Source of the DNA: Prevotellaceae bacterium
Lineage (GTDB): Bacteria; Bacteroidota; Bacteroidia; Bacteroidales; Muribaculaceae
Direction: 5' to 3'
Length of the DNA stretch: 64,000 nucleotides
Assembly (NCBI GenBank): GCA_021772015.1
Contig: JAETNS010000003.1
Coordinates: 124,001-188,000, forward strand
The notes below the pieces were generated by a model that was not told where the DNA came from, searched no databases, and worked only from the letters and a program-made list of their open reading frames with translations. The position numbers and the translations under genes were made by a program. Positions 40,007-64,000 of the stretch are shown one piece after another; within the stretch, counting starts at the first letter, position 1, and each line of letters opens with the position of its first letter.

Positions 40007-40097
40007 GTCATAGGCAGTCGAATAACTGTTACTGAAAAATAATTTACCGAGACCGGTACGCAGGCAATAAGCGGGATTTCTCCTCGTTGTATGATTG

Positions 40098-45039: not shown

Positions 45040-46776
45040 ATGAAATTTCTCAGACATATAGCGTCCGCGACCCTGGGACTTGTGGCTCTCGCCGGTTGCA
45101 CCAATCTGGACGAGACTCTCTACGATCAGGTCGGCACGCAAAACTACTACAACACCAAGAATGATGTCATCCGCGCGGCGTTCCGTCCGTTTGAACATGC
45201 CTATTGGAGCATCCAGAGCCGTCATGTGCTCAATGAGCTGTCGGCTGACCAGCTGATCACACCGACTCGCGACGGCTGGTGGGATGACGGCGGAAAATGG
45301 CGCAGGCTACATTACCATGACTGGAATGTCGAGGATGGCGGTGACGCGCAGACCGAGTGGAACGGCTGTTTCCAGGGAATCATGCAATGTAATTACGTCA
45401 TCGAGGACCTTGCCACACTTGATCCGGCGAAATTCGGCTTTTCCCAGCCTGAATTCGACAATATCAACGCCCAGTGTCGCGCTCTCCGCGCATGGTTCTA
45501 TATCCGCCTGCTTGACGCGTTCCGCAACATTCCCCTGGCTGTGAGCTTCAATGATGTCTCTCTGAACTCCGACGGGCAGGTGGAGCCGAAAGTTGTCTTT
45601 GATTTCGTGGAGAATGAGCTTAAAGACTGTCTGTCTCTTCTCACCAAGAAGGAAAGCCTTGGCACCAACGCCAATATCCAGGGGCAATGGACCCAGGCCG
45701 GAGCCGCCGCGCTTCTTGTCCGTCTTTACCTCAACGCGGAGGTGTATATCGGTGAGAACCGCTATTCCGATTGCGAGAAAGTCGCCCAGGATATCCTTGA
45801 CGGGGTCTATGGAGCCTATCAGGTCGCAGACCGGTGGGATGCGGCTTTCGACTGGAACAACGACACCTGTGACGAGGTGATTTTCGGGTTCCCCGGCTCG
45901 CAGGGTTATTCCTACTGGCATTATCAGGGCGACACCTACTGGTGGACCGTGCCGGCCCGCGCCCGTTACTATTTCAACGACCGCAAGGCCAAAGGTGGCG
46001 ACCATAATACCAAATATGCCGCTTCTCCCAGCTATGACCTCAATGGTGACCTCTATACTTATGAGCTGGGAATGCCGATCCAGAATTTCCGCAAGTATCC
46101 TGGTGACGAGCGCATGAAACTATACCGCAACCTCGGCGACAACAAAAGGGAGGGTATGTTCCTCTTCGGCTATCTTGAATATATCGACGAGGATGGCCAG
46201 AAGAAACGTGTCCGTGCTCCCGAGCAGCCCTATGATCTCTATATCCGTGACGCTGTCGGCAACTTCCAGGCAATGGCCCCCGACAAATGGCCGGCCAACA
46301 AGACCAGCAACCTCATGAACGGAGACCACAATTCAGGCTGGCATTTCGCCAAATATCCTTTCTACAGTGATGACGATTCCCATCAGATGGAGAGCGACTA
46401 CACCGAGATCCGCCTCCCGGAGGTAATCTATTCGTTGGCGGAATGCAAACTCCGCTCGGGCAAGAAATCCGACGCGGCCAAATTGCTCAACAGTGTGCGT
46501 CGCCGCAACTATCCCGCAGAGAATCTTCAGGATGTATTGTATGCTCCTGAAGGAAAAGCAGAACTCAACGAGAAGGAGATGCTCGACGAGTGGGGCCGCG
46601 AGTTTTTCGCCGAGAGCCGCCGTCGTATCGATCTGATACGTTTCGGAAAGTTCTCCACCGGCACATGGTGGGACAAGACACCAGATGCAGGTCGTCACAC
46701 CGAGATTTTCCCGATCATGCGTCCTATTCTCAACTCCAACCCGGCGTTGAAACAGAATCCCGGTTACAGCAACTGA
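45040..46776 (+). CDS. susD: SusD-like glycan-binding lipoprotein (alpha-glucan locus)
   Basis: The 578-residue lipoprotein starts at ATG 45040, giving a signal with lipobox ALAGC (Cys20). The frame also runs upstream into susC, which I discount. Family landmarks are CRALRAWFYIRLLDAFRNIPL, EVIYSLAECKLRSGKKSDAA and the C-terminal ELNEKEMLDEWGREFFAES. It should cap the SusC barrel and bind alpha-glucan on the cell surface. The gap to susC is 34 bases. Confidence 0.94.
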   Translation: MKFLRHIASATLGLVALAGCTNLDETLYDQVGTQNYYNTKNDVIRAAFRPFEHAYWSIQSRHVLNELSADQLITPTRDGWWDDGGKWRRLHYHDWNVEDGGDAQTEWNGCFQGIMQCNYVIEDLATLDPAKFGFSQPEFDNINAQCRALRAWFYIRLLDAFRNIPLAVSFNDVSLNSDGQVEPKVVFDFVENELKDCLSLLTKKESLGTNANIQGQWTQAGAAALLVRLYLNAEVYIGENRYSDCEKVAQDILDGVYGAYQVADRWDAAFDWNNDTCDEVIFGFPGSQGYSYWHYQGDTYWWTVPARARYYFNDRKAKGGDHNTKYAASPSYDLNGDLYTYELGMPIQNFRKYPGDERMKLYRNLGDNKREGMFLFGYLEYIDEDGQKKRVRAPEQPYDLYIRDAVGNFQAMAPDKWPANKTSNLMNGDHNSGWHFAKYPFYSDDDSHQMESDYTEIRLPEVIYSLAECKLRSGKKSDAAKLLNSVRRRNYPAENLQDVLYAPEGKAELNEKEMLDEWGREFFAESRRRIDLIRFGKFSTGTWWDKTPDAGRHTEIFPIMRPILNSNPALKQNPGYSN

Positions 46777-46823: not shown

Positions 46824-48395
46824 ATGAAACTCAAAAACATATTTCCCGCTTTGGCCGCGATCACGATGACCGTGACATTGGCCTCATGTGACGGTGAGAA
46901 AGATCTGGTCATAATCGACGGGAACCTTCCTATAAAGACTTCGACCCTTTATATGGTCGGCGACGCGACTCCGAATGGCTGGAGCATCGACTCACCGACT
47001 CCGTTGACTCCCACTGCAGAAGATCCCCTTGTGTTTACTTGGGAGGGCACGCTCAACACCGGTGAGATGAAGCTATGCCTGACCACCGGCAGCTGGGATG
47101 CCGGTTTCATCCGCCCGCTTTCCAACGGCACGGAAATCAATTCCACGCCGATTGTAGCCGCTACTTTCCAGATGCACGCCGGCGATCCTGACGAGAAGTG
47201 GAAAGTCACGGAAGCAGGTGTCTATCAATTGACCTTCGATCTGCGCAACTGGAACATGTCGACAGCCTATCTTGGCGGTCAGCCTGCTCCGGAGATCGAG
47301 CCTATCGTTGCCGAGGCATTGTTCCTTGTGGGTGATGCGACAGCCAACGGCTGGAACATAGATGCTCCCGTACAGGCTGAGAAGAAATCGGAGTTCATAT
47401 ATGAATACACCGGCCCTCTGACAGGCGGAGATTTCAAAGCCTGCACATCGACCGGCAGCTGGGATGTGCCTTTCGTCCGTCCTGCTTCCGATGGCCAGAA
47501 ACTGACCAAAGATGGTTTCGAGGAGGACGGTTTCGTTTACACGACCGCTCCCGACAATAAATGGAAGGTCGCCGATCCCGGTATATACCATCTGACTTTC
47601 GACCTTGAGAAATGGACTGTCAAGGGTGAGTTTGTCGAAGAGATCGTCAATGAGAAGAATCCGATCGAGACCCCGACCCTCTATATGATCGGCGACGCTA
47701 CCCCCGGCGGATGGAGCATGGATGACGCTACGGCGTTTACCGTTTCCTCCTCAAACAAATATATCTTCACTTGGGAAGGTGATCTTGTGACCGGGTCGAT
47801 GAAAGCCTGTCTGGAGCCTGACGGCACATTCTCTTGTCCGTTTATCCGTCCGGCATCGGCTGATGTGGAGATCTCCTCCAATGGAGTGGCTTCCCCGGAT
47901 TTTGTCTACACCACTGCGCCTGATGACCAGTGGAAGATCACTGAAGCAGGCCGTTACCGCATAGTTTTTGATCTTGAGAACTGGAAAATCGCCGTCACAA
48001 AGCTTGATGGAGATGAGCCGGGACCGGGTGATGACGAGAAGGATCCTATTGAGAGCGCGACCCTCTATATGATCGGCGACGCGACTCCCGGAGGATGGAG
48101 CATGGATGACGCCACGGCGTTTACCCGCTCTGCCGACAATGGCTATATCTTCATATGGGAGGGGAATCTCTCGACAGGGGAGATGAAAGCCTGTCTGGAG
48201 CCTGACGGCACATTCTCCTGTCCTTTCCTCCGTCCGTCATACAATGGCTGTGAGATTTCCCGCCAGGGTGTCGCTTCCCCCGATTTCGTCTACACGACGG
48301 ATCCTGACGACAAATGGAAAGTCACCGAGGCCGGACATTACCGCCTGACTTTTGACTTGCAGAACCTGACTATCGCCGTCACTTCACTTGACTGA
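46824..48395 (+). CDS. SusE/SusF-like lipoprotein with four glycan-binding modules
   Basis: The 523-residue lipoprotein (lipobox LASC, Cys22) contains four tandem modules of the SusE/SusF starch-binding type, at about 41-150, 165-270, 284-395 and 413-523. Each opens with a phrase like LYMVGDATPNGWSID and has a WKV/WKI strand near its end. Each offers Trp residues suited to stacking on glucose rings. Modules 3 and 4 are nearly identical and so arose by recent duplication. It is third in the operon, where SusE usually lies, and should hold alpha-glucan at the cell surface. Confidence 0.9.
   Translation: MKLKNIFPALAAITMTVTLASCDGEKDLVIIDGNLPIKTSTLYMVGDATPNGWSIDSPTPLTPTAEDPLVFTWEGTLNTGEMKLCLTTGSWDAGFIRPLSNGTEINSTPIVAATFQMHAGDPDEKWKVTEAGVYQLTFDLRNWNMSTAYLGGQPAPEIEPIVAEALFLVGDATANGWNIDAPVQAEKKSEFIYEYTGPLTGGDFKACTSTGSWDVPFVRPASDGQKLTKDGFEEDGFVYTTAPDNKWKVADPGIYHLTFDLEKWTVKGEFVEEIVNEKNPIETPTLYMIGDATPGGWSMDDATAFTVSSSNKYIFTWEGDLVTGSMKACLEPDGTFSCPFIRPASADVEISSNGVASPDFVYTTAPDDQWKITEAGRYRIVFDLENWKIAVTKLDGDEPGPGDDEKDPIESATLYMIGDATPGGWSMDDATAFTRSADNGYIFIWEGNLSTGEMKACLEPDGTFSCPFLRPSYNGCEISRQGVASPDFVYTTDPDDKWKVTEAGHYRLTFDLQNLTIAVTSLD
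47673..48008 (+). repeat. Intragenic repeat, SusF-like module 3
   Basis: This 336-base unit is closely similar to 48060-48392 over nearly its whole length, in DNA and in protein (both read ATLYMIGDATPGGWSMDD-like, then ACLEPDGTFSCPF and VASPDFVYTT). An acidic Pro/Gly linker separates the copies. Confidence 0.85.
48060..48392 (+). repeat. Intragenic repeat, SusF-like module 4
   Basis: Second copy of the unit at 47673-48008. Differences cluster in the loop after AFT (VSSSNK against RSADNG) and in the stretch before the shared VASPDFVYTT. Confidence 0.85.
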
Positions 48396-48452: not shown

Positions 48453-49868
48453 ATGAAAAAGATCATGATATCGGCCGGCGTGGCTGTCTCGATGCTTTTT
48501 GCGTCGTGTAGCGATGAGATCGAGATGCGCCGTCCTCCCGTTTACGAGCTTCCGGAACTTCCCGTCGTGGAGGGTATCCACAAAAACAAGGCTCCCCTCT
48601 ATTGGAGCGTATATGAATACTGCTATGAGCAGGAGCTGGCAGGTGTATCCAATGGAGACATGGACATCACCCCCGCCCAGTGGGATGAGATCATCGACTG
48701 GGTGGCCACCGAGCTGAAGCCTCACGGATATGACATGGTCTGCACAGACGGCTTCATTCCGATGCTCGCCAAAGATGAGACAGGATACATGACCCATTAC
48801 GGGTCGACTTCGCTCAAAGATCTTGTGGCCAGGGCGAAAGCCAAAGGTTTGAAAGTCGGGGTGTATGACAATCCTCTCTGGATCCACGGGCCGTCAGAGA
48901 CCAAGATCGAAGGCACGGACTATACTTTCGGTGGACTCACCTACAATGGGACTACCACAGTACTCAATCCGTCGACGGAGGATATGTGGTTTCAGTGGGT
49001 TGTGGCTGAGAATCCCGGAGCAAGAGAGTATATCGACGGTTTCTTCAAACATTATGCCGACCTTGGCATTGATTACATCCGTATGGACTTCCTGTCATGG
49101 TATGAGGATGGCAAAGACCGCAATATCGGTGTGGTCGGCCGTGGCTATGGCCGCCCCTCTTATGCCCGTGCATTGGCCTATATCGCGGAGTCTGCCAAAA
49201 AATATGGGATCTTCACCTCTCTGGTAATGCCCCATATGTATAATGACGCGGAGCTTGAGGCAGCTTACGGAAACATGGTGAGGATCGTGGCCGATACCGG
49301 CGGTGGTGGCTGGTGGCACTGCTCGGCTGCCGACAAAGGGAAGGTCTACGCCAATTGGCCCAACTGTATGAATATGTTTGACGGGTTCGTCTACTGGTCG
49401 CATATATCCGGCCGTGAAAGGGTGATACTCGACGGTGACTTCATCAGGCTTAACAAGTTCGACACCGACGCGGAGAAGGAGACCGTAATATCCCTCCAGC
49501 TGATGGCCGGCGGTCCGGTGACGGTGGCTGACCAGGAGTCTACTATCGGAAACGATATGAAGTTCTACACCAATGACGAGATCCTTGCCCTTAACGCTGA
49601 CCGTTTTGTCGGGAAGCCGCTTAGCCCGAATGTGACAGATGCCAACAATCAGATCTGGTATGGCCAGATGTCAAACGGTGATTGGGTCGTGGGACTCTTC
49701 AACCGTGGTGACAATTCTGTTGCGTATAATGTCAAATTCTCGGATCTCGGTATCCAGGGAGAATGGAAAATCCGTGATCTCTGGCGGCATGCCGATGAAG
49801 GTACCGCGAATCTGGTGTCGGCTACGGTTCCAGCCCACGGGTGTAAAATCATCCGCCTTTCAAAATAA
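48453..49868 (+). CDS. GH27-like glycoside hydrolase lipoprotein
   Basis: The 471-residue lipoprotein (lipobox FASC, Cys19) folds as a clan GH-D barrel by motif. The presumed nucleophile is Asp212 in GIDYIRMDFLSW, and the presumed acid/base Asp281 lies in VRIVADTGGGGWWH. The C-terminal part has the GH27-like run LMAGGPVTVADQES, TNDEILALNADRFVG, WVVGLFNRGD and a beta-sandwich ending in AHGCKIIRLSK. GH27 is best known for alpha-galactosidases, but also contains isomalto-dextranases. In this locus, between SusE/F and GH97 and near GH66, an alpha-1,6-glucan activity such as isomalto-dextranase is more likely than alpha-galactosidase. Exact family and substrate remain to be shown. Confidence 0.72.
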   Translation: MKKIMISAGVAVSMLFASCSDEIEMRRPPVYELPELPVVEGIHKNKAPLYWSVYEYCYEQELAGVSNGDMDITPAQWDEIIDWVATELKPHGYDMVCTDGFIPMLAKDETGYMTHYGSTSLKDLVARAKAKGLKVGVYDNPLWIHGPSETKIEGTDYTFGGLTYNGTTTVLNPSTEDMWFQWVVAENPGAREYIDGFFKHYADLGIDYIRMDFLSWYEDGKDRNIGVVGRGYGRPSYARALAYIAESAKKYGIFTSLVMPHMYNDAELEAAYGNMVRIVADTGGGGWWHCSAADKGKVYANWPNCMNMFDGFVYWSHISGRERVILDGDFIRLNKFDTDAEKETVISLQLMAGGPVTVADQESTIGNDMKFYTNDEILALNADRFVGKPLSPNVTDANNQIWYGQMSNGDWVVGLFNRGDNSVAYNVKFSDLGIQGEWKIRDLWRHADEGTANLVSATVPAHGCKIIRLSK

Positions 49869-49896: not shown

Positions 49897-52041
<2,145 letters not shown>

Positions 52042-52095: not shown

Positions 52096-53001
52096 ATGAA
52101 AATCTTTACCAAAATTGCTATCGCAGCCGCTTGCGTCGTGACTGCCGCCAACGTTTCAGCTCAAGGAAGAACCGACCTGCTCTGGGTGCTCGGAGATGCA
52201 ACCCCTTCAGGTTGGAGCACCGACGATGCTACCGCCCTTCTCGCACCGGCCGATGACTCGAAAATCTATTCCGGGACAATGTATCTGGAGGCTGACAAGG
52301 ACTTCAAGTTCCTTACCACCTATGATTTCGGCAATATGGAATACCGCGCAGCGACGGCTGATGCCACTCCTGACGCGGATGGGAAAGTAGCTCTCGTGCT
52401 GACCGGCGATGGAGATGACTTCAAGATACATGTGACCGAGTCGGCCAATTATCTCATCACAGTGGACACAGAGTCGCTTGAGGCCACTATTGTCAAATCG
52501 GCTTATCAGGAGACACAGGTTCGTTATGCTTCGATCTTTATCGTCGGGTCGGCTTTGTCGACAGGGTATGCCGTCGACAAGGGACTGGCTATGCTGCAGA
52601 ACCCCGCCGCGCCGTATGAATTCAGTGTTTCCAACGCCTCCATGCAGGAGGGCTCTTTCAAAATAGCCACCGCCCTCAAAGGATCCGGCACCTGGGATGC
52701 CCGATACTGGTACTTCGCCGATCCCGCCGATCCCACGAAGATGATGCCGAATGCTGATGGAGACAACCAGTGGAGCATTTCTACCGCAGGCAATTATGAC
52801 GTGAAAGCCAATCTGGCAACCAATGTGATCTCTATCACCGAAGCCGGCCAGTCTGGTATATCGGAAATTACTGCCGGCGCTGTTGAAGATCTCCCGGTTG
52901 CATATTATACCATCGAAGGCCGTCGTGTTGATGCTCCTGTGGCCGGAAGCCTGGTGATCAAGGTCTCCGCTGACGGAACCGCTACCAAAGTACGTTTCTG
53001 A
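52096..53001 (+). CDS. Two-module SusE/F-like protein with secretion tail
   Basis: The ATG at 52096 opens a signal peptide ending NVSA before Gln; the frame extends 12 codons upstream to a TTG that I discount. The 301-residue product has two SusE/F-like modules, opening LWVLGDATPSGWSTDD (about 28) and IFIVGSALSTGYAVDKG (about 150). Its tail, YYTIEGRRVDAPVAG then SADGTATKVRF, is like that of other secreted Bacteroidales proteins, including the Omp28-like gene at 17720. There is no convincing lipobox. It should be an extracellular or T9SS-anchored alpha-glucan-binding protein. Confidence 0.78.
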   Translation: MKIFTKIAIAAACVVTAANVSAQGRTDLLWVLGDATPSGWSTDDATALLAPADDSKIYSGTMYLEADKDFKFLTTYDFGNMEYRAATADATPDADGKVALVLTGDGDDFKIHVTESANYLITVDTESLEATIVKSAYQETQVRYASIFIVGSALSTGYAVDKGLAMLQNPAAPYEFSVSNASMQEGSFKIATALKGSGTWDARYWYFADPADPTKMMPNADGDNQWSISTAGNYDVKANLATNVISITEAGQSGISEITAGAVEDLPVAYYTIEGRRVDAPVAGSLVIKVSADGTATKVRF

Positions 53002-53052
53002 TCCACTCCACATTAATCCTTAAAACGCCTTAAGATTCCTGCAAATCAAGAG

Positions 53053-53091
53053 TGTGCCGGGAGGGAGGCTCCGACGTTCTCTCCCGACACA
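53053..53091 (+). promoter_or_regulatory. Hairpin inside the alpha-glucan operon
   Basis: TGTGCCGGGAG (53053-53063) pairs with CTCCCGACACA (53081-53091) except for one C.A mismatch, with a 17-base loop and no T-run. It lies in the largest internal gap of the operon (125 bases) and may lower readthrough or protect the upstream mRNA. Confidence 0.4.
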
Positions 53092-53126
53092 TTCCTATCT
53101 TTCGTATGCTTTAACCTGACCATATA

Positions 53127-56100
53127 ATGAAAAGAATACTGCGTAGAAACATGATATCAGTCATGGCCTCTCTGGCGTTTATGCCAGCTATGGCCTGGGA
53201 TCATCTATACCTGATCGGCGAGGGGACTCCCACGGGGTGGTCTCTCGACAACATGATAGAGATGAAGGAGACTGCAGCCGGGTCTAATGTCTATGTGACA
53301 GTCTGTTATCTCGACAATGAGAAGGGCGGCACTTTCCGTCTGCAACCTGACAAGGATTGGGTCGAGGAGAATTATTATGGAGCCGCATTTTCCGGAGAGA
53401 CCATCGCCAATGACCAATGGATGACATTGAACCGAGGAAAAGGAGATCAGTTCAAGGTCGCTACTCCCGGTATATATTATTTAGAGGCCAATCTCAATGA
53501 CAATCAAGTAAAGATCAATCGTATGGATGCCCTTTACATGGTCGGAAGCGCGACACCGGCCGGTTGGAGCATTGATGACGCTTTCGCTCTAAGGAATTCA
53601 AACGATTATCCTGACCATTATTGGGGCAGTATGGCTTTGACGGGAGGCGATTTTGATCACCCCGACAGTTTCAAGATGTTTGTCGATAAAGGAGGAGCGC
53701 AAGGATTCGATTCCCGTTTCTTCCTTTTCAAAAAATCCAAAGGGGAGTTCATGACGTCCTCCGATGGTGATTCGCAATGGACGGTGGGAGACCCCAACCA
53801 GTCCACCCATGAAGAGCGTGATCTCGTCGCGGGAACTTACAATGTATTTGTCGATGCGGCCACCAAGGCTGTCAAGTTTTTCCTTCATGCAAAGTCTGTG
53901 TTTCTTGTCGGTCCCGGTGTGCTTTCGTCATGGAGCAATGACGGTCAGAATCCGGTCCTTACTTCGGAAGGAGATGGTCGGTACTCACGCAAGCATGTCT
54001 TTTTCCGTAGCGGCAATGACAATCTTTTCAAGGTGGTGGCCGACGGGAAATATTACGGTTCAGACAGTTGGGAGAACACAACTCTGGCCGATAATTCCAC
54101 TGCTTATATGCGGGTGATAAATACCGGGGCCGATTTCAGGGTTGACGCTTCCGGTTTCAGAAATGTGGTTGTACGTCCCAGCGATGCCGGTGACGGCACT
54201 CTTTGTATGGAACTTTCAGGCCGTCAAAGCGTCTGGTACGAGGGCTTATGCGCTCTTGACTATGATGAATCCTCTCTTTCTTATGTCGACAATAACGGTT
54301 TAAACTGGTTGTCTTCAGGATTTTCAACGGAAGTGAAGATTGACGGGGATGTGGTCTCCACCCTACGTTCTGACAAAACCGGATGGTACTCGGCCTCTGT
54401 CACTTTCAATGGCCCCAATCCTTCATACAATCTTGTATGGCAGGCTCCCATTCTTGAGGGGGACGCGGCAGGGACAGCCATTGAATTCGCTCAGCAGGAT
54501 GCGGAGGATGGCCGTTTCATACGCCGGAGGGTCTACTTGAATGGAGGACAGACGATAAGGGGACGAATCGGCTCGCTTGTGTCTGCTGATGTCAATGTTT
54601 CCGCTTCGGGATATTACACGGTTGTCCTTGAGATGACTGACGGCTCTCCTCGTGTTTCTGTCTCCGGACCGTTTGATGCCCACATGCCTCTGACGGAGAC
54701 TGATTTCAATGATGGCCGCAAACATTATTTCCTTGTCGGACAGCGTATGGGCGCATGGCGATTACAGCCTGAATGGGAGTTCATACCCAGAGGAGACGGT
54801 ACATTCGCTATCCCCACGCGTGCCCTTTACAATGGGTATGTCATGGTCGGTGAGGTAGATAATTATGAAGATTATGTGATGCAGACCTACAGGGGATATT
54901 CCCATACAGATCTGGGCGTGGAGTCAAAGATCGATCCCCGCAACAATGACCAGGAGGTTACGCGTGAGTTACCCCTTGCGCTTCTTCCTTCGACCGGCAA
55001 GAACGGCTGTCTCGACGGCAAGTACACCGATACCCGTTACAATGACATAAAGCGTACCTCACCGAATGTGCAGCATGGAGGCTGGGATGCGATGAAGCTC
55101 CGTCTGATCCATATCCTTACCCCTGACGGCTACAATGATGTGGAGCATATACAGTCTTTGCCTTCACGCGTCAACTCCATCGTATTGTCTGTAGACGAAG
55201 AGGGCCATCCCTCCCATATCAGGTTTGAGGGACTTAACACCTCGGCCCGTGCTTTGGCTGAGATCAGAACTTTCTCGCTTGTCGGAGGGGGCATCAAGAA
55301 CCGCCATGTCACATATGGCGAGAACGGTGTGACTTCCCCGCTTAACAATCAGCCCGGTTACAATGGCTCGGAATGGAGTGAATCATGGATCCAGTATGAC
55401 AATTCCGCAAGACCGTATGTCGACGGCAATGGAGAGTATATATATCATACGAGTTTTACGCGTGACTGGCTCCGTCCTCATCCGTCATATTTCAATTTCG
55501 GGGATGATTTCGAATATACTTCCAACAATATCACTTTCGTGTATAATCCCGACATCACTCATGCCGATCAATTCGGACAGCGTATCGGTATTGACAGCGG
55601 CGGCGATGAACGCCCCGAAGTCTTGCATACTTATTTCCGTGAACCGTCAGGCGATGAGAGCATAGGGCGCAATGACATGGCGGCTAACAGTCTTGACGAT
55701 GTCATTTCAATACCGTCGGAAGACCGGGCATGTTTTGTCGTGGAAGACATGTGGATGGAAGGAATGTTCAAGATCTGGTGTGGCTGGGGAGGCTCTGCCA
55801 CTAATTATGAGTTTGAAGACAACGGTACAAACTATACCCGCTGGTTCCGCAGCAATGGCGGTCATGGCAGAAACGCAGAGGATTGCACGGCATATTTTCA
55901 GGCAGACAAGATCCTGGCCTACACGATTTTCGAGGATGTCCCTGCGGCCAACTTCGGCATAGGTTACGGACTGCCTTCTACCGACACCTTCACCAATCCG
56001 AAAGTAGACAAGAACGGTGTGATCAGGGATGAATACAAGGAGCACCCCGAACGCCGTTACTTCAAACGGGTTGAGATATGGTTCAATCTCAAAAACGGTT

Positions 56101-56777
56101 TCGCATACAAGGGTAATGAAGGGGCTTCCGTGATCATTTTCTATCAGGAGGAGAGCGGCCCTAACATTACAATCACCAAATCAGGGGAAAACCATGCAAG
56201 CTATAATTTCTATATTCCCCTGATAGGAATGACAGAGGATGTCGACAACAGGGTGTATGGCAACGTTACAGCCTACAAGGTATATCGTATAGCTATTGAT
56301 GATGAAGGAGTGGAGGGTGATCCGGTTCTTGTCGAGTCAAAGGATCTCGGGGAGGAAGGTGTGCCCAGGAAAGATTTCGGAAACATAGACATCGTCGATC
56401 CGACCTCTCTACCTGCCGGGCGTTACCGTTACAAGATAGAAACCACCCGCAAGAACACGGCAGACAACAAATGGTTGAGCGCGAAATCCAATATCATACG
56501 TATAAACTCCGAGGACATACCGAGCGGAGTGGAGAATGTCGGACAGGAAGAATCTGATGATTTCAGTCTCAGGGTAAACGCAACTCCGTCGGAAGGGACA
56601 CTTAAAGTCAGCGCGAATGGAGAGATCGGCTGGTTGACCATATATTCCGTCAACGGGTCTGTCGTCAACCGTCTGCGTGTCGCTGCCAATGCCGCCACTG
56701 TTGATATCTCCGCGCTGCCCGTGGGGGTGTATGTGGCCAATGCGAATAACAAATCAGTAAGATTCGTCAAACGATGA
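53127..56777 (+). CDS. Giant multimodular SusE/F-like surface protein with T9SS tail
   Basis: The 1216-residue product has a signal peptide ending AMA before Trp24. Three SusE/F-like modules follow: 25-132 (LYLIGEGTPTGWSLDN), 135-252 (LYMVGSATPAGWSIDD) and 256-365 (VFLVGPGVLSSWSNDG). A fourth, related unit opens HYFLVGQRMGAWRLQPEW near 533. Residues 366-530 and about 600-1090 are large regions I do not recognise, rich in Tyr, Trp, Asp and Asn. A fibronectin-like part (1060-1130) precedes a T9SS type A tail (LTIYSVNGSVV, then LPVGVYVANANN, ending VRFVKR). Its stop overlaps the next start by four bases. It is likely a cell-surface or released alpha-glucan-binding scaffold; an enzymatic centre in the unknown region cannot be excluded. 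Confidence 0.75.
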   Translation: MKRILRRNMISVMASLAFMPAMAWDHLYLIGEGTPTGWSLDNMIEMKETAAGSNVYVTVCYLDNEKGGTFRLQPDKDWVEENYYGAAFSGETIANDQWMTLNRGKGDQFKVATPGIYYLEANLNDNQVKINRMDALYMVGSATPAGWSIDDAFALRNSNDYPDHYWGSMALTGGDFDHPDSFKMFVDKGGAQGFDSRFFLFKKSKGEFMTSSDGDSQWTVGDPNQSTHEERDLVAGTYNVFVDAATKAVKFFLHAKSVFLVGPGVLSSWSNDGQNPVLTSEGDGRYSRKHVFFRSGNDNLFKVVADGKYYGSDSWENTTLADNSTAYMRVINTGADFRVDASGFRNVVVRPSDAGDGTLCMELSGRQSVWYEGLCALDYDESSLSYVDNNGLNWLSSGFSTEVKIDGDVVSTLRSDKTGWYSASVTFNGPNPSYNLVWQAPILEGDAAGTAIEFAQQDAEDGRFIRRRVYLNGGQTIRGRIGSLVSADVNVSASGYYTVVLEMTDGSPRVSVSGPFDAHMPLTETDFNDGRKHYFLVGQRMGAWRLQPEWEFIPRGDGTFAIPTRALYNGYVMVGEVDNYEDYVMQTYRGYSHTDLGVESKIDPRNNDQEVTRELPLALLPSTGKNGCLDGKYTDTRYNDIKRTSPNVQHGGWDAMKLRLIHILTPDGYNDVEHIQSLPSRVNSIVLSVDEEGHPSHIRFEGLNTSARALAEIRTFSLVGGGIKNRHVTYGENGVTSPLNNQPGYNGSEWSESWIQYDNSARPYVDGNGEYIYHTSFTRDWLRPHPSYFNFGDDFEYTSNNITFVYNPDITHADQFGQRIGIDSGGDERPEVLHTYFREPSGDESIGRNDMAANSLDDVISIPSEDRACFVVEDMWMEGMFKIWCGWGGSATNYEFEDNGTNYTRWFRSNGGHGRNAEDCTAYFQADKILAYTIFEDVPAANFGIGYGLPSTDTFTNPKVDKNGVIRDEYKEHPERRYFKRVEIWFNLKNGFAYKGNEGASVIIFYQEESGPNITITKSGENHASYNFYIPLIGMTEDVDNRVYGNVTAYKVYRIAIDDEGVEGDPVLVESKDLGEEGVPRKDFGNIDIVDPTSLPAGRYRYKIETTRKNTADNKWLSAKSNIIRINSEDIPSGVENVGQEESDDFSLRVNATPSEGTLKVSANGEIGWLTIYSVNGSVVNRLRVAANAATVDISALPVGVYVANANNKSVRFVKR

Positions 56778-58114
56778 GTGTCAGACGCTTTTTGATCATG
56801 GTCTTGGCCGTGGCAGGCATCTTAACGGTGCCTGTCAGGGCTGAGATAAATTACCTCCGGTTGTATCTGGTCGGAGACGCGACTCCCGGAGGTTGGAATG
56901 AGAAATTGCCGGAAGAGATGGTTGCTATCGGCAACAACTGCTTCCTTTGGGACGGCTGGCTTGGAAAAGGAGAGCTTAAGTTCCTGAACACGCGCGGAGA
57001 CTGGGACAGCTCGATAGTCACCTCGTCGCCCGGACTGGTGTTTGATACCGGGGTCAAATATGACCTTTATTATAAGCATTGGTCTGACAATAAGTTTGTC
57101 AATGAGACCCCTGGATATGTGAGGATCATTGTCGATCTCGGCAATATGAAGGTCAATTTCCGTCGTCCGGCTCTTGCCTTTGTCGGGCCTGCTGCAAAGG
57201 GATGGTCTCTTGATGATGTCATTCCCGTGTTTGCTGACGATGAGGGGAATGTGAGCTGGAGGGGACAGTTGCGTGCCGGCGAATTGAAAATCCTTGCTGA
57301 CGGGGCGTTTGACTGGACTCCTTGTTACAACGCGCCTTACGAGGGGGACCTCATCACCCCCGGAGGCCATCAAATGATTTTCAACACATCCGATCACGAC
57401 CAAGGAGGTAATTTCGTCGATTTCAAATATTTGGTTCCCAGAGCCGGACTGTATGCGTTCAAGTTCAAGAATGAGGGTGGTGGGCGTTTTTTCGGCATGG
57501 ATGTCACGATGGATGCCGAGCCTGATCTTACGGGAGGCTTCCGCTCGATCCCCGGACGCTATCTCGCGGCTATTGACAGGGGGGCTCGCCGGGTTCATTT
57601 TGGTCCGGTCCCTTCACGCCTCTATATCGGCGAATCCGGTGCGGACTGTATGGAGCTTAATGCGCAGGGTAATGACCGCTTCTCGTCGATCGTGGATCTC
57701 AGGAGAGGGAAATATTACAAATTGTCATCCAATCCTGCATCGTGGGAGGCTTCGGCCATTTCCCCTAATGTAGACACGGACATAACTTCTGCCACTTCCA
57801 ACCTGTCGCCTATGCATGGTTACAGTTATGTTGTCCCCGAAGACGGGCAATATCAGGTTAACGCAGACTTTTCAGGTAATATCCCTTATCTGTCAGCCAA
57901 ACGTCATGTGACATCATCGGTGGAAACGGTGATGGATGTTCTGCCCCGGGTGAAGGCCATCGGCGGGGAGATAACAGTCGAAGGCGACTTCACGAGTGTG
58001 GCCGTTTATGATGTCTCCGGCCGCTTTATGGGGTGTGATTCCCCATGTCGGGTTGCGCCCGGAACCTATATCGTCAGAGTCGACAATAATATTTTCAAGA
58101 TTTCATCCAGATGA
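56774..58114 (+). CDS. SusE/F-like protein with T9SS tail
   Basis: The 446-residue product has a signal peptide ending VRA before Glu24. Modules of SusE/F type begin at about 30 (LYLVGDATPGGWNEK), 133 (LAFVGPAAKGWSLDD) and 282 (LYIGESGADCMELN). The tail, VAVYDVSGRFMGCDSPC then APGTYIVRVDNN, is a clear T9SS type A form. It overlaps both neighbours by four bases (ATGA), so it is translationally coupled to the 1216-residue protein and to the GH66 dextranase. This suggests the three act together at the surface. Confidence 0.8.
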   Translation: MSVRRFLIMVLAVAGILTVPVRAEINYLRLYLVGDATPGGWNEKLPEEMVAIGNNCFLWDGWLGKGELKFLNTRGDWDSSIVTSSPGLVFDTGVKYDLYYKHWSDNKFVNETPGYVRIIVDLGNMKVNFRRPALAFVGPAAKGWSLDDVIPVFADDEGNVSWRGQLRAGELKILADGAFDWTPCYNAPYEGDLITPGGHQMIFNTSDHDQGGNFVDFKYLVPRAGLYAFKFKNEGGGRFFGMDVTMDAEPDLTGGFRSIPGRYLAAIDRGARRVHFGPVPSRLYIGESGADCMELNAQGNDRFSSIVDLRRGKYYKLSSNPASWEASAISPNVDTDITSATSNLSPMHGYSYVVPEDGQYQVNADFSGNIPYLSAKRHVTSSVETVMDVLPRVKAIGGEITVEGDFTSVAVYDVSGRFMGCDSPCRVAPGTYIVRVDNNIFKISSR

Positions 58115-60150
58115 TCTATAAAAATACAATTCTCGTGGCCATAAGCCTTTTGGCCGGATGTGGAAGCGTTGCCGGACAATGGCGTAGCGGCGTATGGATC
58201 GGCACTTCGGCATCGGGAAATGAATGTCCTCCGGCCAATGCGACCCAGATGTGTCAATCTCCATCGGGAGATTTCCATGCCGGTGTGATTGCCATAGGGG
58301 AAGGTGATAAAATAAGTTTCGCCGATTATGGTGATGGGAACGAGCAGGCTGCTCCGCTCGCTCCCCGTGGGCATAAGGATTTCCCATCGTCAGAGAACTG
58401 GGCTTATGATATACAGGACGGCTCGGATATCCATGATTATCCGGCCCGACAGTTGGCATCGTCACAGCCTGATATCGCTGGTTTTGATTTATGGACAGAC
58501 AAGGCTTGCTACAAACCCGGGGAAACCGTATGGATCCAGACGGCTAATTTTGCCGCTTATCCCGGTGCAAGAATCCGTTATCGTCATGGTGTGGAGGTGT
58601 TGAGAGATGATCCCCTTAAACAGGAATGGCGTTCCTGGACACCTCCGGCAACTGATTACAAAGGGTATCTGGTGGATGTTTACCGTCTTGACGGGGAGGG
58701 ACGCGAGCAGATACTCGGGTCGATAGCCGTTGATGTCTCTTCCCATTGGAAACGTTTCCCGCGCAACGGTTATACGGCGTGGTATGAACCCGGCAAGGAG
58801 CAATATATTCCCGGAGATGTCGCTTTCCTGAACCGCCGCCACATCAATGTGGTGCAGTTTCAAGACTGGCATTGGAAACATCATCATCCTTATTGCGGCG
58901 ACGCGGAATATACCGATATCGCCAACAACAAGGTCTCGCTCAATGTCGTCAGGAAATTCATAGAGACACAACATGGTTATAACATGAAGGCTCTTTTCTA
59001 TAACCTTGGTTTCGGGGCATTGGAAAACGCCGGCGCGGCCGCTGACGGAGTCAAGGAGGAATGGTATTATTATTTCGACCAGAACCATTCCAGGAAAGAT
59101 TATCATATGCTGCCTGATGGTTGGAAAAGCAACATAACGTTTGTCGATCCGGGCAACTCCGAATGGCAGAATTATCTGTGTGACCGGAATGATGAAGTCT
59201 ACCGCAACCTTGACTTTGACGGTTTCCAGGTCGATCAGGTAGGGCAGCGGGAGGACGGCTACATATATGATTACTGGGGCAACCGCCATCTTATGGCAGA
59301 CAGGTTCCCGTCATTGTTGAAAGCTTTCAAGCAACGCCATCCGTCGAAGTCGCTTATCATGAACTCCGTCTCCAAACATGGCGCGTCGCAGATCGCTTCC
59401 TCCGGAGTGATCGACGCTTGTTACAGCGAATTATGGGGGGCGGAATCTGATTTCATGGACATATATTGGGTGATTTTCGACAACAAGCAGGCCGGAGGAA
59501 ACGACATGCGGACGATTTTCGCCAATTATATGAATTACGACTACGGGGTGGCCAATCCCGGCAAGACATTCAATACCCCCGGAGTCCTTCTGACAGATGC
59601 CTGCATTTTTGCCCTCGGAGGATCGCATCTTGAACTTGGGACCGGAGGGAACATGCTTTGCAATGAGTATTTCCCCAATACCAACCTTAAGATGGACGCA
59701 GAGCTGACGCAGGCGATCACCCGTTATTATGATTTCATTACCGCATATGAGAACTACATATATGACACCAGCCGCGAGCTTACCCCGACGATAACCTCCA
59801 TTTCCGGCCATCAACTGTCGACATGGAATTATGTGCTCGGTCCACAACCGCGCAAGGTAGTGATACATGGGAAGGAGACCAATCACGGGGCGATGGTCTA
59901 TCATCTGCTGAATTTCAGGAATGTCAATTCGCTGAGCTGGCGAGATGTCAATGCCGACATGCCGCGCCCGGAACGCCAGACTGATATCTCCCTTGACATA
60001 GACTGTGACCGGATGGTGTCGCGTGTATGGGTTGCCACACCCGACATGGATGCCTGTGTGCCGCGATCCCTCGAATTCACCCAGCAGGGACGCTCCCTGA
60101 GGGTAACCGTCCCCTCGCTTGACTACTGGACTATGCTTGTTCTCGAATGA
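58111..60150 (+). CDS. GH66 dextranase lipoprotein
   Basis: The 679-residue lipoprotein has lipobox LLAGC (Cys17), so it is probably displayed on the surface. Conserved GH66 landmarks are VQFQDWHWKHHHP (about 248-260) and DFDGFQVDQVG, with Asp375 as expected nucleophile. SSGVIDACYSELWG carries Glu440 as expected acid/base. An N-terminal beta domain (110-215, FDLWTDKACYKPGETVWI) and a C-terminal beta domain (about 590-679) flank the barrel. GH66 enzymes cut alpha-1,6-glucan inside the chain (dextranase) or cyclise it. No CITase-type insertion was recognised, so dextranase is preferred. This gene is the main evidence for dextran as the substrate of the locus. Confidence 0.92.
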   Translation: MIYKNTILVAISLLAGCGSVAGQWRSGVWIGTSASGNECPPANATQMCQSPSGDFHAGVIAIGEGDKISFADYGDGNEQAAPLAPRGHKDFPSSENWAYDIQDGSDIHDYPARQLASSQPDIAGFDLWTDKACYKPGETVWIQTANFAAYPGARIRYRHGVEVLRDDPLKQEWRSWTPPATDYKGYLVDVYRLDGEGREQILGSIAVDVSSHWKRFPRNGYTAWYEPGKEQYIPGDVAFLNRRHINVVQFQDWHWKHHHPYCGDAEYTDIANNKVSLNVVRKFIETQHGYNMKALFYNLGFGALENAGAAADGVKEEWYYYFDQNHSRKDYHMLPDGWKSNITFVDPGNSEWQNYLCDRNDEVYRNLDFDGFQVDQVGQREDGYIYDYWGNRHLMADRFPSLLKAFKQRHPSKSLIMNSVSKHGASQIASSGVIDACYSELWGAESDFMDIYWVIFDNKQAGGNDMRTIFANYMNYDYGVANPGKTFNTPGVLLTDACIFALGGSHLELGTGGNMLCNEYFPNTNLKMDAELTQAITRYYDFITAYENYIYDTSRELTPTITSISGHQLSTWNYVLGPQPRKVVIHGKETNHGAMVYHLLNFRNVNSLSWRDVNADMPRPERQTDISLDIDCDRMVSRVWVATPDMDACVPRSLEFTQQGRSLRVTVPSLDYWTMLVLE

Positions 60151-60430: not shown

Positions 60431-63400
60431 ATGATCAAATTTATTTCGCGGTATGTGGTGGTGATGGCCGTCATGCTCGTCACGCACATCCCGTCATTGG
60501 CTTACAGGGTTTACTATGATAATTCCTCGACCCAATGGACTCAGCCCAAGGTTTATTATTGGAATCCGTCAGGTGGTTTCGAAGATCCGGCGTGGCCCGG
60601 AAAAGACATGATTGCCTATACCGGACGACCGGAATTGGTGAATATATGGTATTATGATGTCAACGATGAGACTAAAGGGGTCATCTTCACTGATGGGAAG
60701 GGCAATCAGTCGAAAGATTACATGGGAGACAAAACCAAGTTCGCCGACCAGGTGTTCGGTTATGCCGAAAAAAACTCTACGACAGATGTGGACGATGTGA
60801 TCTATGGCAACATTGACGATTACGATCAGTCCGGAGAATTGACTGATTATAAGATATATTTCCACAACAAGGATTCGTGGGACAATGTGAACGTCAAAAT
60901 CATCGGTTATGGAGAGATCGGAGGGGAGATGGAGTCGTTTCTCAACAGCTCTGTACATGATTTCTCTTTCACCGCGCCCGAACGCGTTTCATTGACATGT
61001 TATTTTTACCTGGAATCGAACGGACAGGAGGTCAATCCGACGGCACGCTTCTCGGTGGTCAACGGGCATGTGTACACCACAAGCGGTGACAAAGGGGATT
61101 ATTCCTCATACGATGTCACCAACACGCTTCCTGAAAAGGAATTTTGGTTTGATCCGGCAACTCCGTCGCAGCTTCAGAAAGTCACTCTGTATTTCAACAA
61201 GACATATGTCGCGGACAGTAAACTGAAAGACACGGATGATATTTACCTCTACGCGGGTCTTGTGGAGAAAGACACTAACGACAGCCAATGGTTCGGTGTC
61301 CCGAACTGGGGCAATCCGGGCGAGAAGTTCAAAATGGAGCGTGATGCGGACAGGCCGAATCTCTATTCGTTGTCATTCGAGCCTTCCCTCGCCCAGTGGT
61401 TTGGTGCCGCGGATGACCAGGTTTTCACCAAATTAGGTTTCATATTCCGTAATGCTGACGGCTCGGTGAAGCAACATAGCGCAGACCAGTTCCTTAATCT
61501 TCGCCAGATCGCAGATCCGACAGAAGGGCTTGGTGCATGCTCGGGCTATACTATAGCCGACGGCTCAGTCCTTTTCTCTGCCGAGAAAGGTACTCTGAAG
61601 CTCACTCCTGTCTCAGAACAGGTCGTCAAGGTTTTCACGCTTCCATCAGGAGCATCGGTGACCACCGAACGTCGTTCAATTTCGGTCAGCGAGGAGAGTT
61701 TCACCAATCCGGATTTCAACATCGAGGAAAACGACCTGGAATATGTTGTCGTGATCGATGGCGGTCTGAAGGTTCATGTAGAGAAGGCGGCATCAAAGGT
61801 CTCATTCCACGACAGATACGACAATCTGTACCTTGCCGAGCTTTCAGGCTTGTCAAATCGCGTCGGCAATATCAAGGCGACTTTCCAAGGGATGGAAGAC
61901 GAGGCTTTTTATGGTGGTGGCTATAATGGCAACCGCACAAACTGGGAGGGAGCCACGATGATAATGAACAATACCCAGACCGGCAACTGGGGGCAGGGGA
62001 CAAGCCATCCCCACAACATCTGCATCCCATTCTATGTCTCGACGAAAGGCTACGGGCTTTATTTCGACGACCATTACCGCAATGCCTCAATCATTCCTAC
62101 CGCTACAGGCTCTTGCTACACCAGCAAAAGCAAGAATCCCATCGCGTATTATTTCATTGGCGGAGGAGATATGACAGACGGTCATGGCTCCATGCGGAAA
62201 GCAGTCGAGAATTACACCCGTCTGACCGGTCTGCAGGAACTTCCCCCATACTGGGCTTTGGGCTACATCACCTCTAAGTTCAGTTTCGAAAGCCGCAACG
62301 AGGCTGAAGAGACCATACGTAAGACAAAGGACATAAATATCCCGATTGATGCCATTGTGTTTGACATACATTGGCAGGGCGGAACACAAAAGATGGGCCG
62401 TATTGACTGGGATACGGATCGTTATAACGCTCCGACGGAGATGATAAGCAATTTCCGGAACCAGAATGTACATTCCATCGTCATCACGGAACCATTCTTC
62501 ACGAGCAATTCCGGCAACTACGAGTATATGAAATCCCATGGATTCTTCTCAGACGATCATGTCGAGGGTATGGGCTGGCTGAATTCAGAGCATGTCGGAC
62601 TCCTTGACGTGACAAACCCGGATGCGGTCAATTGGTTTAAGGATCTTTATAAAAAACGGACGCTCGAGGGTATAGACGGCTGGTGGCTTGACCTTGGAGA
62701 GCCGGAAAAACATGACCCCGAGAGCCAATATCAGGAGGGGGACATCAATCAGGTCCATAACGAGTATGGCAATCTATGGTGTGAATTCGTCCTTGACGCG
62801 CTTAAAGAATGTCGTCCGGACATGCGTCACATGCTCATGCCGCGAGCCGGCACCTCCGGTATGCAGCGGTTCAACACATTCCCGTGGACAGGTGACATTT
62901 CCCGCTCTTGGAATGGTCTCAAGGCTCAGGTCCCTGCCTTGGTCAGCGGAGCGATGTCGGGAGTCAGCTATCTTGGCAGTGACATAGGAGGTTTCTCGAC
63001 CAATGGCGGTTCAAATCCTCAACTCTACCGCAGGTGGGTGCAGCTGGGGGTCTTCTATCCGGCGATGCGTACCCATTCCACCCATGTGCCTGAGGTATGG
63101 CAGGATGTTTACAGAGAAGTCCGTGACGATGTGCGCGACGCCATAAACCTGCGATACGCCTATCTGCCTTATACTTACACTCAGTCATATACCTATAGCC
63201 GCTTTGGAACCCCGATTGCCCGTCCGGCCAATTTTGACGATGCCGACAAGTCTGTGCTCGCCAATTGCATTGATGCTTATTATTGGGGCCCTGACGTGTT
63301 TGTAGCCCCTGTGCTTAGCGAAAACGATTCCAGGACAATAACTTTCCCCGAAGGTGAATGGCTTGATATGAATGATTTCACCACTATCTATCCGGGGCAT

Positions 63401-64000
63401 GTCTCGATGACATATTCGGCTTCGCCGAGCACATTGCCCCACTTCATGCGGCGTGGATCATTCGTTACCCGTTACCGACAAGACACGTTCACCAGCACGG
63501 CTGAGATCGAGACCAATCGTATCACCGTCGATTATTTCCCCTCTTATGGCGACAAGCCAGACCAAGGAATGTTTTATGATGATGATCACATCAGCTCAAC
63601 GTCGATCAAGGACGGGAATTATGTAGTGACCAATTTCACGGCCGGCAAAAGCCTAAGCGGAGAGATGAGCATCAGTATCGAGCGTGAAGGAAACGGTTGG
63701 GACAATATCTACGATGGAGAACCGCAGGACATACTCTTATGCATCCACGACTATCGTGACGGCGTTTCCAGCCCAAGGCTCATATCCCCCAGTGACATCC
63801 ACCGGGCCGAGGTTTCGCTGGGGAGCTACAGCGCGGACGGATTCCAGCAGCTGGCGTCGTTGGATGAGGTCAAGGCCGAGGACAATATTCCGAGCTATGC
63901 CAAGGTCGGAGACAAATTGTATGTCAGGCTACCGAGAATCTCGCCCACTGGCAATTATACGATGATAATAGATAATGATGTCATACTTAGCCAGCTTGAG
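60431..64000 (+). CDS. GH31 alpha-glucosidase with N-terminal starch-binding module, cut by window edge
   Basis: The frame runs from ATG 60431 to the last base without a stop (1190 codons seen). A signal peptide ends SLA before Tyr25. Residues 25-130 (RVYYDNSSTQWTQPKVYYW) look like a CBM26-type starch-binding module. A second beta module covers about 235-385. The GH31 part follows, with an N-terminal sandwich (about 400-590, DEAFYGGGYNGNR) and a catalytic barrel. The nucleophile is Asp754 in DGWWLDLGEPE and the acid/base Asp822 in PWTGDISRSW. The beta-sandwich domains after the barrel continue to the edge. Expected activity is alpha-glucosidase or alpha-1,6-glucosidase on dextran fragments; transglycosylase types exist in this family. 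The missing C-terminus would show whether it also has a T9SS tail. Confidence 0.92.
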   Translation, partial: MIKFISRYVVVMAVMLVTHIPSLAYRVYYDNSSTQWTQPKVYYWNPSGGFEDPAWPGKDMIAYTGRPELVNIWYYDVNDETKGVIFTDGKGNQSKDYMGDKTKFADQVFGYAEKNSTTDVDDVIYGNIDDYDQSGELTDYKIYFHNKDSWDNVNVKIIGYGEIGGEMESFLNSSVHDFSFTAPERVSLTCYFYLESNGQEVNPTARFSVVNGHVYTTSGDKGDYSSYDVTNTLPEKEFWFDPATPSQLQKVTLYFNKTYVADSKLKDTDDIYLYAGLVEKDTNDSQWFGVPNWGNPGEKFKMERDADRPNLYSLSFEPSLAQWFGAADDQVFTKLGFIFRNADGSVKQHSADQFLNLRQIADPTEGLGACSGYTIADGSVLFSAEKGTLKLTPVSEQVVKVFTLPSGASVTTERRSISVSEESFTNPDFNIEENDLEYVVVIDGGLKVHVEKAASKVSFHDRYDNLYLAELSGLSNRVGNIKATFQGMEDEAFYGGGYNGNRTNWEGATMIMNNTQTGNWGQGTSHPHNICIPFYVSTKGYGLYFDDHYRNASIIPTATGSCYTSKSKNPIAYYFIGGGDMTDGHGSMRKAVENYTRLTGLQELPPYWALGYITSKFSFESRNEAEETIRKTKDINIPIDAIVFDIHWQGGTQKMGRIDWDTDRYNAPTEMISNFRNQNVHSIVITEPFFTSNSGNYEYMKSHGFFSDDHVEGMGWLNSEHVGLLDVTNPDAVNWFKDLYKKRTLEGIDGWWLDLGEPEKHDPESQYQEGDINQVHNEYGNLWCEFVLDALKECRPDMRHMLMPRAGTSGMQRFNTFPWTGDISRSWNGLKAQVPALVSGAMSGVSYLGSDIGGFSTNGGSNPQLYRRWVQLGVFYPAMRTHSTHVPEVWQDVYREVRDDVRDAINLRYAYLPYTYTQSYTYSRFGTPIARPANFDDADKSVLANCIDAYYWGPDVFVAPVLSENDSRTITFPEGEWLDMNDFTTIYPGHVSMTYSASPSTLPHFMRRGSFVTRYRQDTFTSTAEIETNRITVDYFPSYGDKPDQGMFYDDDHISSTSIKDGNYVVTNFTAGKSLSGEMSISIEREGNGWDNIYDGEPQDILLCIHDYRDGVSSPRLISPSDIHRAEVSLGSYSADGFQQLASLDEVKAEDNIPSYAKVGDKLYVRLPRISPTGNYTMIIDNDVILSQLE

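Follow-up and report, generated by a model that had tools for sequence, protein, structure and literature searches.

SusE/F-type modules on putative T9SS cargo proteins in a predicted dextran locus of Muribaculaceae

Characterised SusE and SusF are surface glycan-binding lipoproteins, and glycan uptake in gut Bacteroidota is modelled around lipoproteins packed on SusCD. In the dextran utilisome of Bacteroides thetaiotaomicron, BT3088 is described as a lipoprotein component located on SusC (PMC7618045, excerpt); its deletion has been combined with growth tests on dextrans that differ in size (PMC10936149, excerpt). The dextran locus of Flavobacterium johnsoniae likewise holds a SusE/F homolog, FjDusE, and a GH66 enzyme, FjGH66; type II signal peptides are predicted for both, and the eight genes of that locus as listed in the excerpted source include no second SusE/F protein (PMC10316084). 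Secretion through the T9SS is also stated for F. johnsoniae (PMC5127042, excerpt).

Here we analysed a window of 64,000 nucleotides, the whole stretch of DNA under consideration, from a Prevotellaceae bacterium placed in Muribaculaceae, a common gut family. Three of its genes, P1, P2 and P3, encode proteins of the BT3088 module family within a locus of the same kind (SusC, SusD, SGBP, GH66). Whereas BT3088 is described as a lipoprotein and type II signal peptides are predicted for FjDusE and FjGH66, P1-P3 lack a lipobox and carry C-terminal tails. The original prediction held that these adjacent genes place SusE/F-type modules on T9SS-secreted proteins.

Gene content of the locus

All genes of the locus lie on the forward strand. 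It opens with a SusR-type regulator (40095..41759), whose homologs adjoin SusC in other genomes and which by analogy would control the dextran genes. A SusC-like TonB-dependent transporter (42018..45005), a neighbour also conserved in other genomes, and a SusD-like lipoprotein with a strict lipobox at Cys20 (45040..46776) follow. The four-module SusE/F lipoprotein that had been predicted in the operon is real, and lies at 46824..48395, outside the 52096-58114 interval to which the prediction referred. It has a strict lipobox at Cys22, scores 158.7 bits over four stretches with Pfam SusF_SusE (PF16411) and matches PDB entries 9sje (E 5e-34) and 9sji (E 7e-34). It is a relative of BT3088 (SGBPdex), the surface glycan-binding protein for dextran.

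Two enzyme genes separate this lipoprotein from P1: a GH27 isomaltodextranase, probably a lipoprotein (48453..49868; PDB 5awo isomaltodextranase, E 4.8e-85), and a GH97 alpha-glycosidase with Pfam N, catalytic and C domains, probably periplasmic (49900..52041). P1 (52096..53001, 301 aa), P2 (53127..56777, 1216 aa) and P3 (56774..58114, 446 aa) come next, P2 and P3 sharing an ATGA overlap. P3 in turn overlaps by 4 bases with a GH66 endodextranase (58111..60150), which scores 573.9 bits with Pfam GH66 and 676.6 bits with NF052487, below the cut-off of 730 for the latter. The last gene (60431..64000, continuing past the window; 1277 aa in all) encodes a GH31 enzyme with a signal peptide (PDB GH31, E 1e-102); its C-terminus looks tail-like by eye only, and TIGR04183 reports no match there. 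Judged from the GH27, GH97 and GH66 context, positions 40095-64000 represent a predicted dextran utilisation locus.

A surface dextranase had been proposed as the partner of P1-P3, and this part of the prediction is revised. GH66 has a lipobox at Cys17 here; its four closest orthologs have none, and none of the five proteins, including that of the window, has a T9SS tail, so that GH66 may not be surface-bound. The GH27 isomaltodextranase has the motif FASC, compatible with a loose lipobox pattern though not with the strict one, and the loose pattern recurs in 24/26 homolog rows (20/22 after removal of the duplicates of four records). By these patterns the regularly lipid-tagged enzyme of the locus is predicted to be GH27, not GH66.

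Modules, signal peptides and C-terminal tails of P1, P2 and P3

The open reading frames of P1-P3 were as predicted, with type I signal peptides (read by eye together with a lipobox pattern). A pattern scan found no strict lipobox in the three proteins or in 14 P1-like rows. Cys13 of P1 sits within the hydrophobic stretch but is not embedded in a lipobox, and a Cys just ahead of the first module is present in 3 of the 14 rows (L058, L068, L072). We rejected the idea that P1 is a lipoprotein through Cys13, because the lipobox is missing and the residue is not a Cys in the majority of P1-like rows.

All three proteins exceeded the gathering cut-off of PF16411 (27.5 bits), with 50.8 bits for P1, 46.9 for P2 and 51.1 for P3, and 14/14 P1-like members matched the same model. 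P1 holds two modules, P2 about three (two PF16411 stretches and a third recognised by motif) followed by further all-beta domains, and P3 at least two (two stretches). A profile of the P1 family searched against solved structures gave BT3088 as best match by sequence (E 4e-37), and SusF at E 0.0015. The predicted structure of P1 (pLDDT 84.6) had SusF (1.6e-7) and SusE (1.7e-6) as best Foldseek matches, in a range extending to 6.4e-6, with TM-scores of only 0.21-0.37 against them. The P2 model was poor (mean pLDDT 63.1), its best Foldseek match being SusF at E 1.2e-5. Since Pfam, the profile-to-PDB search and, for P1, the predicted fold agree, we ruled out chance or misreading as the source of the modules; the SusE/F modules are supported by sequence for P1-P3 and by modelling for P1. 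A Pfam scan recognised no catalytic domain in the three proteins. The C-terminal half of P2 could be given no family, with neither a Pfam nor a PDB match beyond chance and a poor model; relatives of it occur inside other large ORFs of the same bacterial family.

The claim of T9SS-type tails held at the border of the curated cut-offs for P2 and was weaker for its neighbours. Against cut-offs of 23 bits for TIGR04183 and 27 for the Pfam tail model (PF18962), the P2 tail (56604..56771), which is of type A, scored 27.2 bits with TIGR04183 in a genome search and 22.7 in a protein scan, and 26.9 with the Pfam model; the last 70 residues of P2 were modelled as seven strands. P3 gave 12.0 bits (E 0.15) with TIGR04183, and P1 matched neither model. 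As the P1 and P3 tails thus fall well below the curated cut-offs, P2 alone has a sorting-domain match, and one at the border. HMMs built solely from other proteins of the same genome scored 29.6 bits for P1, 32.8 for P2 and 13.3 for P3, compared with about 5 bits reached by the non-tailed proteins among 193 other ORFs, a set that also includes P1-like and other tailed proteins, which were left out of this comparison.

The tail of P1 (52882..52998), itself one row of the short-tail alignment that it matches, can be aligned with the final 38 columns of the type A alignment from its own genome, the first part of the domain being absent. At least 16 other proteins of this genome with signal peptides, judged by eye, end in the short tail with 0-4 residues left. 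A short-tailed protein of 1264 aa encoded outside the dextran locus shows a weak SusE/F match.

The source genome holds T9SS genes, with matches to SprA (2672 bits), PorU (877 and 423), PorV (409 and 175) and GldM (546), ruling out absence of the system. Across the order, 48/392 genomes searched held the short tail, namely 48/370 of those with SprA versus 0/22 of those without, a statistically weak difference (P 0.05).

These data bear on the alternative that P2 and P3 are T9SS cargo and the short tail of P1 is no T9SS signal, P1 residing in the periplasm or elsewhere in the envelope and binding isomaltooligosaccharides near GH97. Its tail does escape the Pfam model and TIGR04183 (1/14 P1-like members matches the latter, at E 0.058), and its gene directly follows that of the probably periplasmic GH97. 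In addition, one or two weak short-tail matches are present in 9/158 genomes of one genus, of which the two members examined for SprA lack it. However, hhalign placed the short tail in the same C-terminal register as type A tails (probability 94.8, E 5e-8), the 16 other signal-peptide proteins share it, and SprA is found in all 48 short-tail genomes of the order search. We consider a non-exported P1 improbable.

Distribution of P1-like proteins and related loci

The original prediction attributed the arrangement to one lineage. This did not hold: P1-like proteins were found in 26/297 family genomes and in three Prevotella records, so that the arrangement is family-wide and a local innovation is ruled out. 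The 26 genomes all fall within the 36/297 that hold a GH27 isomaltodextranase, and in 14 of them the P1-like gene lies 2.1-6.2 kb from it; the other 10 isomaltodextranase genomes gave no P1-like match of counted strength. On these comparisons P1 is conserved in the predicted dextran clusters of related species. Among 80 loci picked by GH97 alignment, most of which are other GH97 loci and five of which repeat other records (L099=L070, L100=L071, L101=L080, L106=L083, L111=L073), there was no P1-like gene beside GH97 in L106, L113 and L114. Near-full-length P2 was present in 5/297 genomes. P2-P3-GH66 can occur apart from SusCD (L078, L079).

P1-P3 might instead be T9SS-exported adhesins for mucin, host glycans or dextran-producing neighbours, with generic SusE/F modules and a ligand other than dextran. 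Consistent with this are that separation from SusCD, the relatives of the P2 C-terminal half in large ORFs, and the weak SusE/F match on the short-tailed protein outside the locus. Against it, P1 tracks the isomaltodextranase in 26/26 genomes, P2-P3 stay with GH66 in 5/5, and the solved sequence closest to the P1 profile is a dextran SGBP. We give an adhesin role little credence.

Two further loci contain related combinations. In L081 (genome G027), a protein combines GH66, a SusE/F module and a T9SS tail (27.2 bits with TIGR04183), two SusE/F proteins have T9SS tails scoring 29.4 and 26.3 bits against the cut-off of 23, and lipoprotein-like GH66 and SusE/F proteins adjoin the tailed versions. 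The tailed GH66 also fits the strict lipobox pattern, at Cys16 in the middle of the hydrophobic stretch. In L031, a second locus of the source genome, one isomaltodextranase carries a SusE/F module and has a tail-like C-terminus; beside it lies an untailed, lipoprotein-like copy.

Proposed two-layer arrangement and comparison with known systems

We think it likely that P1-P3 and related tailed proteins constitute a second layer, exported by the T9SS, that binds alpha-1,6-glucan and in some cases cuts it. After export by the T9SS and cleavage of their tails by PorU, P1-P3, whether anchored to surface polysaccharide or released, would lie outside the SusCDE lipoprotein complex that the dextran locus also encodes, and hold large dextran chains near the cell surface. 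The held dextran would be cut by the lipid-tagged isomaltodextranase, joined in some species by a dextranase, and the products would enter through SusCD. Evenly balanced, in our judgement, is the broader joint proposal that dextran loci of Muribaculaceae and some Prevotella combine a lipid-anchored SusCD layer with a T9SS layer reusing SusE/F modules, alone or enzyme-fused, and that the shortened type A tail marks a large, overlooked class of T9SS signals in Muribaculaceae. If the short tail is such a signal, many uncounted T9SS substrates would be added in genomes of the family.

A simpler account, which overlaps with the two-layer arrangement, is that P1-P3 are ordinary T9SS cargo with binding modules and form no special layer. 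Precedents are the T9SS-secreted PUL enzyme ChiA of F. johnsoniae (PMC5127042, excerpt) and multi-modular T9SS cellulases with binding modules (PMC5831590, excerpt). Yet none of P1-P3 has a recognised catalytic domain, all three reuse the kind of module found in the operon's lipoprotein SGBP, and L031 and L081 again pair lipoprotein-like with tailed versions. We regard ordinary cargo as somewhat unlikely, and retain the two-layer arrangement as our preferred reading.

A literature search found no published description of SusE/F proteins with T9SS tails, in agreement with the view that the case is undescribed. The bimodular build is shared with an outer membrane glycan-binding protein whose ligand is cellulose and for which the excerpted source makes no claim of T9SS cargo status (PMC12016534). 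With respect to the type A sorting domain (TIGR04183/PF18962), P2 stands at the cut-off, P3 is weak and the P1 tail is negative with the curated models. ChiA, from the chitin locus of F. johnsoniae, is likewise a polysaccharide-locus product exported by the T9SS in parallel with lipoproteins (PMC5127042, excerpt); ChiA is an enzyme, whereas P1-P3 are SusE/F-type predicted binding proteins. If their T9SS export is true, the reach of glycan capture and its sharing with neighbours would differ from the Bacteroides model.

Module content and arrangement of P1-P3

In this 2.86 Mb draft genome, in which the window spans C21:124001-188000, a single dextran-type polysaccharide utilisation locus fills the window from 40095 onward, in the order regulator, SusC, SusD, four-module SusE/F lipoprotein, GH27, GH97, P1 (52096-53001), P2 (53127-56777), P3 (56774-58114), GH66 and GH31, the last extending beyond the window edge. 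The top solved match of the GH27 was an isomaltodextranase (PDB 5awo, E 4.8e-85). Both the P2/P3 and the P3/GH66 junctions are 4-base overlaps, which are kept in 4/4 genomes with both ends called (the window and loci L077, L078 and L079); in L076 the P3 reading frame is open. The 125-base P1-P2 spacer (53002-53126) contains, by eye, a GC-rich inverted repeat, absent from the output of a promoter/terminator scan, at which two transcription units are possibly separated. The corresponding gap in L077 is just 35 bases.

The presence of SusE/F modules in all three genes was borne out by Pfam, with SusF_SusE (PF16411) scores of 50.8 (P1), 46.9 (P2) and 51.1 bits (P3) against a cut-off of 27.5; 14/14 P1-like proteins matched the same family. 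Against solved structures, the P1 profile detected the Bacteroides thetaiotaomicron surface glycan-binding protein for dextran, BT3088, at E 4e-37, and SusF at E 0.0015. The predicted P1 model (mean pLDDT 84.6, 14 sequences used) had SusF and SusE as its top three fold matches (E 1.6e-7, 1.7e-6 and 6.4e-6), followed by the X25 domain of Ruminococcus bromii Sca5; BT3088 was absent among the 50 fold matches listed. TM-scores were low (0.21-0.37), which we attribute to a different placement of the two domains. The P2 model was poor (mean pLDDT 63.1), its top fold match being SusF (E 1.2e-5) and the remaining ones generic beta repeats. The unassigned half of P2, at 54600-56500, has relatives (~30-38% identity) inside ORFs of ~730-2550 aa in the family, and falls in no Pfam family.

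Export signals and the short-tail class

No strict lipobox was found by pattern search in P1, P2 or P3, in line with the original observation, nor in 14 P1-like rows. The genome also encodes the T9SS components looked for, namely SprA, two PorU-like proteins, two PorV-like proteins and GldM, all high-scoring. The PorU-like pair lies at C41:193-3519 and C27:69777-73073, the PorV-like pair on contigs C15 and C16.

The predicted sorting domains were recovered in part: TIGR04183, which models the type A tail, gave 18 matches in the genome, with P2 among the 13 above cut-off; in the protein scan P2 fell just under the cut-off (22.7 against 23 bits), and no call was made for P1 and P3. Type A sorting domains have seven strands, and seven strands were predicted in the last 70 residues of P2. 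We also built leave-out tail HMMs from other proteins of the same genome, one for type A (six proteins: L001, L002, L003, L004, L006 and L008) and one for the shorter tail of P1 (16 proteins). P2 and P3 scored 32.8 and 13.3 bits with the former, P1 scored 29.6 bits with the latter, and all 14 P1-like proteins scored 23 to 70 bits with the short-form HMM; untailed proteins among 193 other ORFs reached about 5 bits. The best TIGR04183 match in the genome (39.5 bits) is a secreted 744 aa protein at 948-3182 on the minus strand of the window.

When aligned with type A, the short form covers the final 38 columns and shares its end point (hhalign probability 94.8). Searching the genome with the short-tail alignment gave at least 18 matches (18/18 scored candidates, out of 55). 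Apart from P1 and a 1264 aa protein of locus L032, 16 of these match within 0-4 residues of the C-terminus, and each of the 16 begins with a signal peptide by eye; one, in L087, has a lipobox-like LAAC early within the hydrophobic stretch. Since at least 16 other proteins end in it, the short tail defines a class spread over the genome and is not peculiar to P1. A secreted 656 aa protein with this tail is encoded at 17720-19690 (plus strand), outside the dextran locus.

Across 392 genomes of the order (completeness of at least 90% asked for; up to 18 candidates scored per genome), SprA was found in 370 and the short tail in 48, all 48 SprA-positive, an association with P 0.05 given just 22 SprA-negative genomes. 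Six genomes of the own family had 7 to 18 short-tail matches each, at up to 72 bits; the seventh, G013, had no match in this search. In the genus of the SprA-negative G348 and G439, 9/158 genomes had matches, 1-2 each and weak (best 34 bits). A tie between the short tail and T9SS has support but falls short of proof.

Paired versions, surface enzymes and distribution

The genome has 11 PF16411 matches on 8 ORFs, one of these ORFs being under cut-off. In six of the 8 the C-terminus is a tail or resembles one: P1, P2, P3, two in a locus on contig C47 and the 1264 aa ORF of L032, whose tail is of the short form. The C47 locus combines a lipoprotein-like one-module SusE/F protein with a tailed 341 aa SusE/F protein (TIGR04183 26.4 bits in the genome search, 21.8 in the protein scan), and an untailed lipoprotein-like GH27 adjoins a second, isomaltodextranase-like GH27 (positions 7460-9877 of L031, the record of this locus). 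The latter includes a SusE/F module (28.3 bits in the genome search; 23.1 against 27.5 in the protein scan) and a weak T9SS-like tail (17.2 bits, cut-off 23).

The curated tail test was passed outright in G027, a genome of another genus whose SusC is 31% alike over the compared stretch. In its dextran locus (L081, 5187-16596), T9SS tails occur on a GH66 with SusE/F modules (27.2 bits) and on two SusE/F proteins, one with four modules (26.3 bits) and one of 326 aa (29.4 bits; 209 bits with the P1 profile). Beside these, the locus encodes a GH66 lipoprotein and a SusE/F protein of lipoprotein-like type. The tailed GH66, however, also matches the strict lipobox pattern at Cys16. In locus L060 (1477-3497), a SusE/F module pair lies N-terminal to an enzyme assigned by eye as GH31-like, in a record that stops before the C-terminus.

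The original prediction had P1-P3 working with a surface dextranase. The window GH66 indeed has a lipobox at Cys 17, but by eye its four closest orthologs (L076-L079) have none. Of the isomaltodextranase rows, 24/26 (20/22 without duplicates) agree with a loose lipobox pattern. By eye, none of the five GH66 proteins has a T9SS tail. In G063 and G293 (L078, L079) the P2-P3-GH66 group is located away from the SusCD genes; P1 therefore goes with the isomaltodextranase locus and P2-P3 with GH66, the two groups being joined in the window.

P1-like proteins, counted as near-full-length profile matches of at least 267 bits among up to 8 candidates per genome (leaving out lower-scoring rows, including SusE/F pairs within 577-1425 aa ORFs), occur in 26/297 family genomes. 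All 26 fall within the 36/297 that have an isomaltodextranase at E 1e-50 or better (Fisher 1.6e-29, the genomes not being independent). The two genes lie 2.1-6.2 kb apart on one contig in 14/26 and on separate contigs in the other 12, all drafts. L082 has no adjacent P1-like gene; its genome has one on another contig.

Among 80 named loci chosen via GH97, 7 contain 8 tailed SusE/F proteins. Four of these loci (L099, L100, L101, L111) repeat records of the family set; Prevotella sp. P2-180, SUG883 and SUG565 are new. P1 is missing from the same-type loci L106/L083, L113 (Prevotella P6B1) and L114 (Hallella multisaccharivorax), and Bacteroides dextran loci (L102, L104, L109, L117) have untailed SusE/F proteins only.

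A proposed second binding layer and known systems

The feature originally noticed in P1-P3 is real. The three proteins would be exported and would bind dextran. The best explanation, which we consider likely, is that they form a second binding layer outside the lipoprotein SusCDE complex; our confidence is slightly reduced because the tailed GH66 of G027 has a lipobox and some records are repeated.

Flavobacterial multimodular enzymes are reportedly the topic of one paper (PMC13235733). In the literature searched, mostly without subscription journals, we recognised no description of SusE/F proteins with T9SS tails. BT3088 mutants grow more weakly on 200 kDa dextran (PMC10936149), and a chitin locus has the T9SS-secreted ChiA (PMC5127042). 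Related accounts concern the dextran utilisome (PMC7618045), the F. johnsoniae dextran locus (PMC10316084), multi-modular cellulases of T9SS (PMC5831590), CHU_1279 (PMC12016534), SusE-like enzymes (PMC8211771) and BAM with SusE (PMC12611786). The combination as a putative recurrent second layer, which we did not find described, joins two elements that are already known: T9SS cargo from polysaccharide loci and SusE/F glycan-binding modules.
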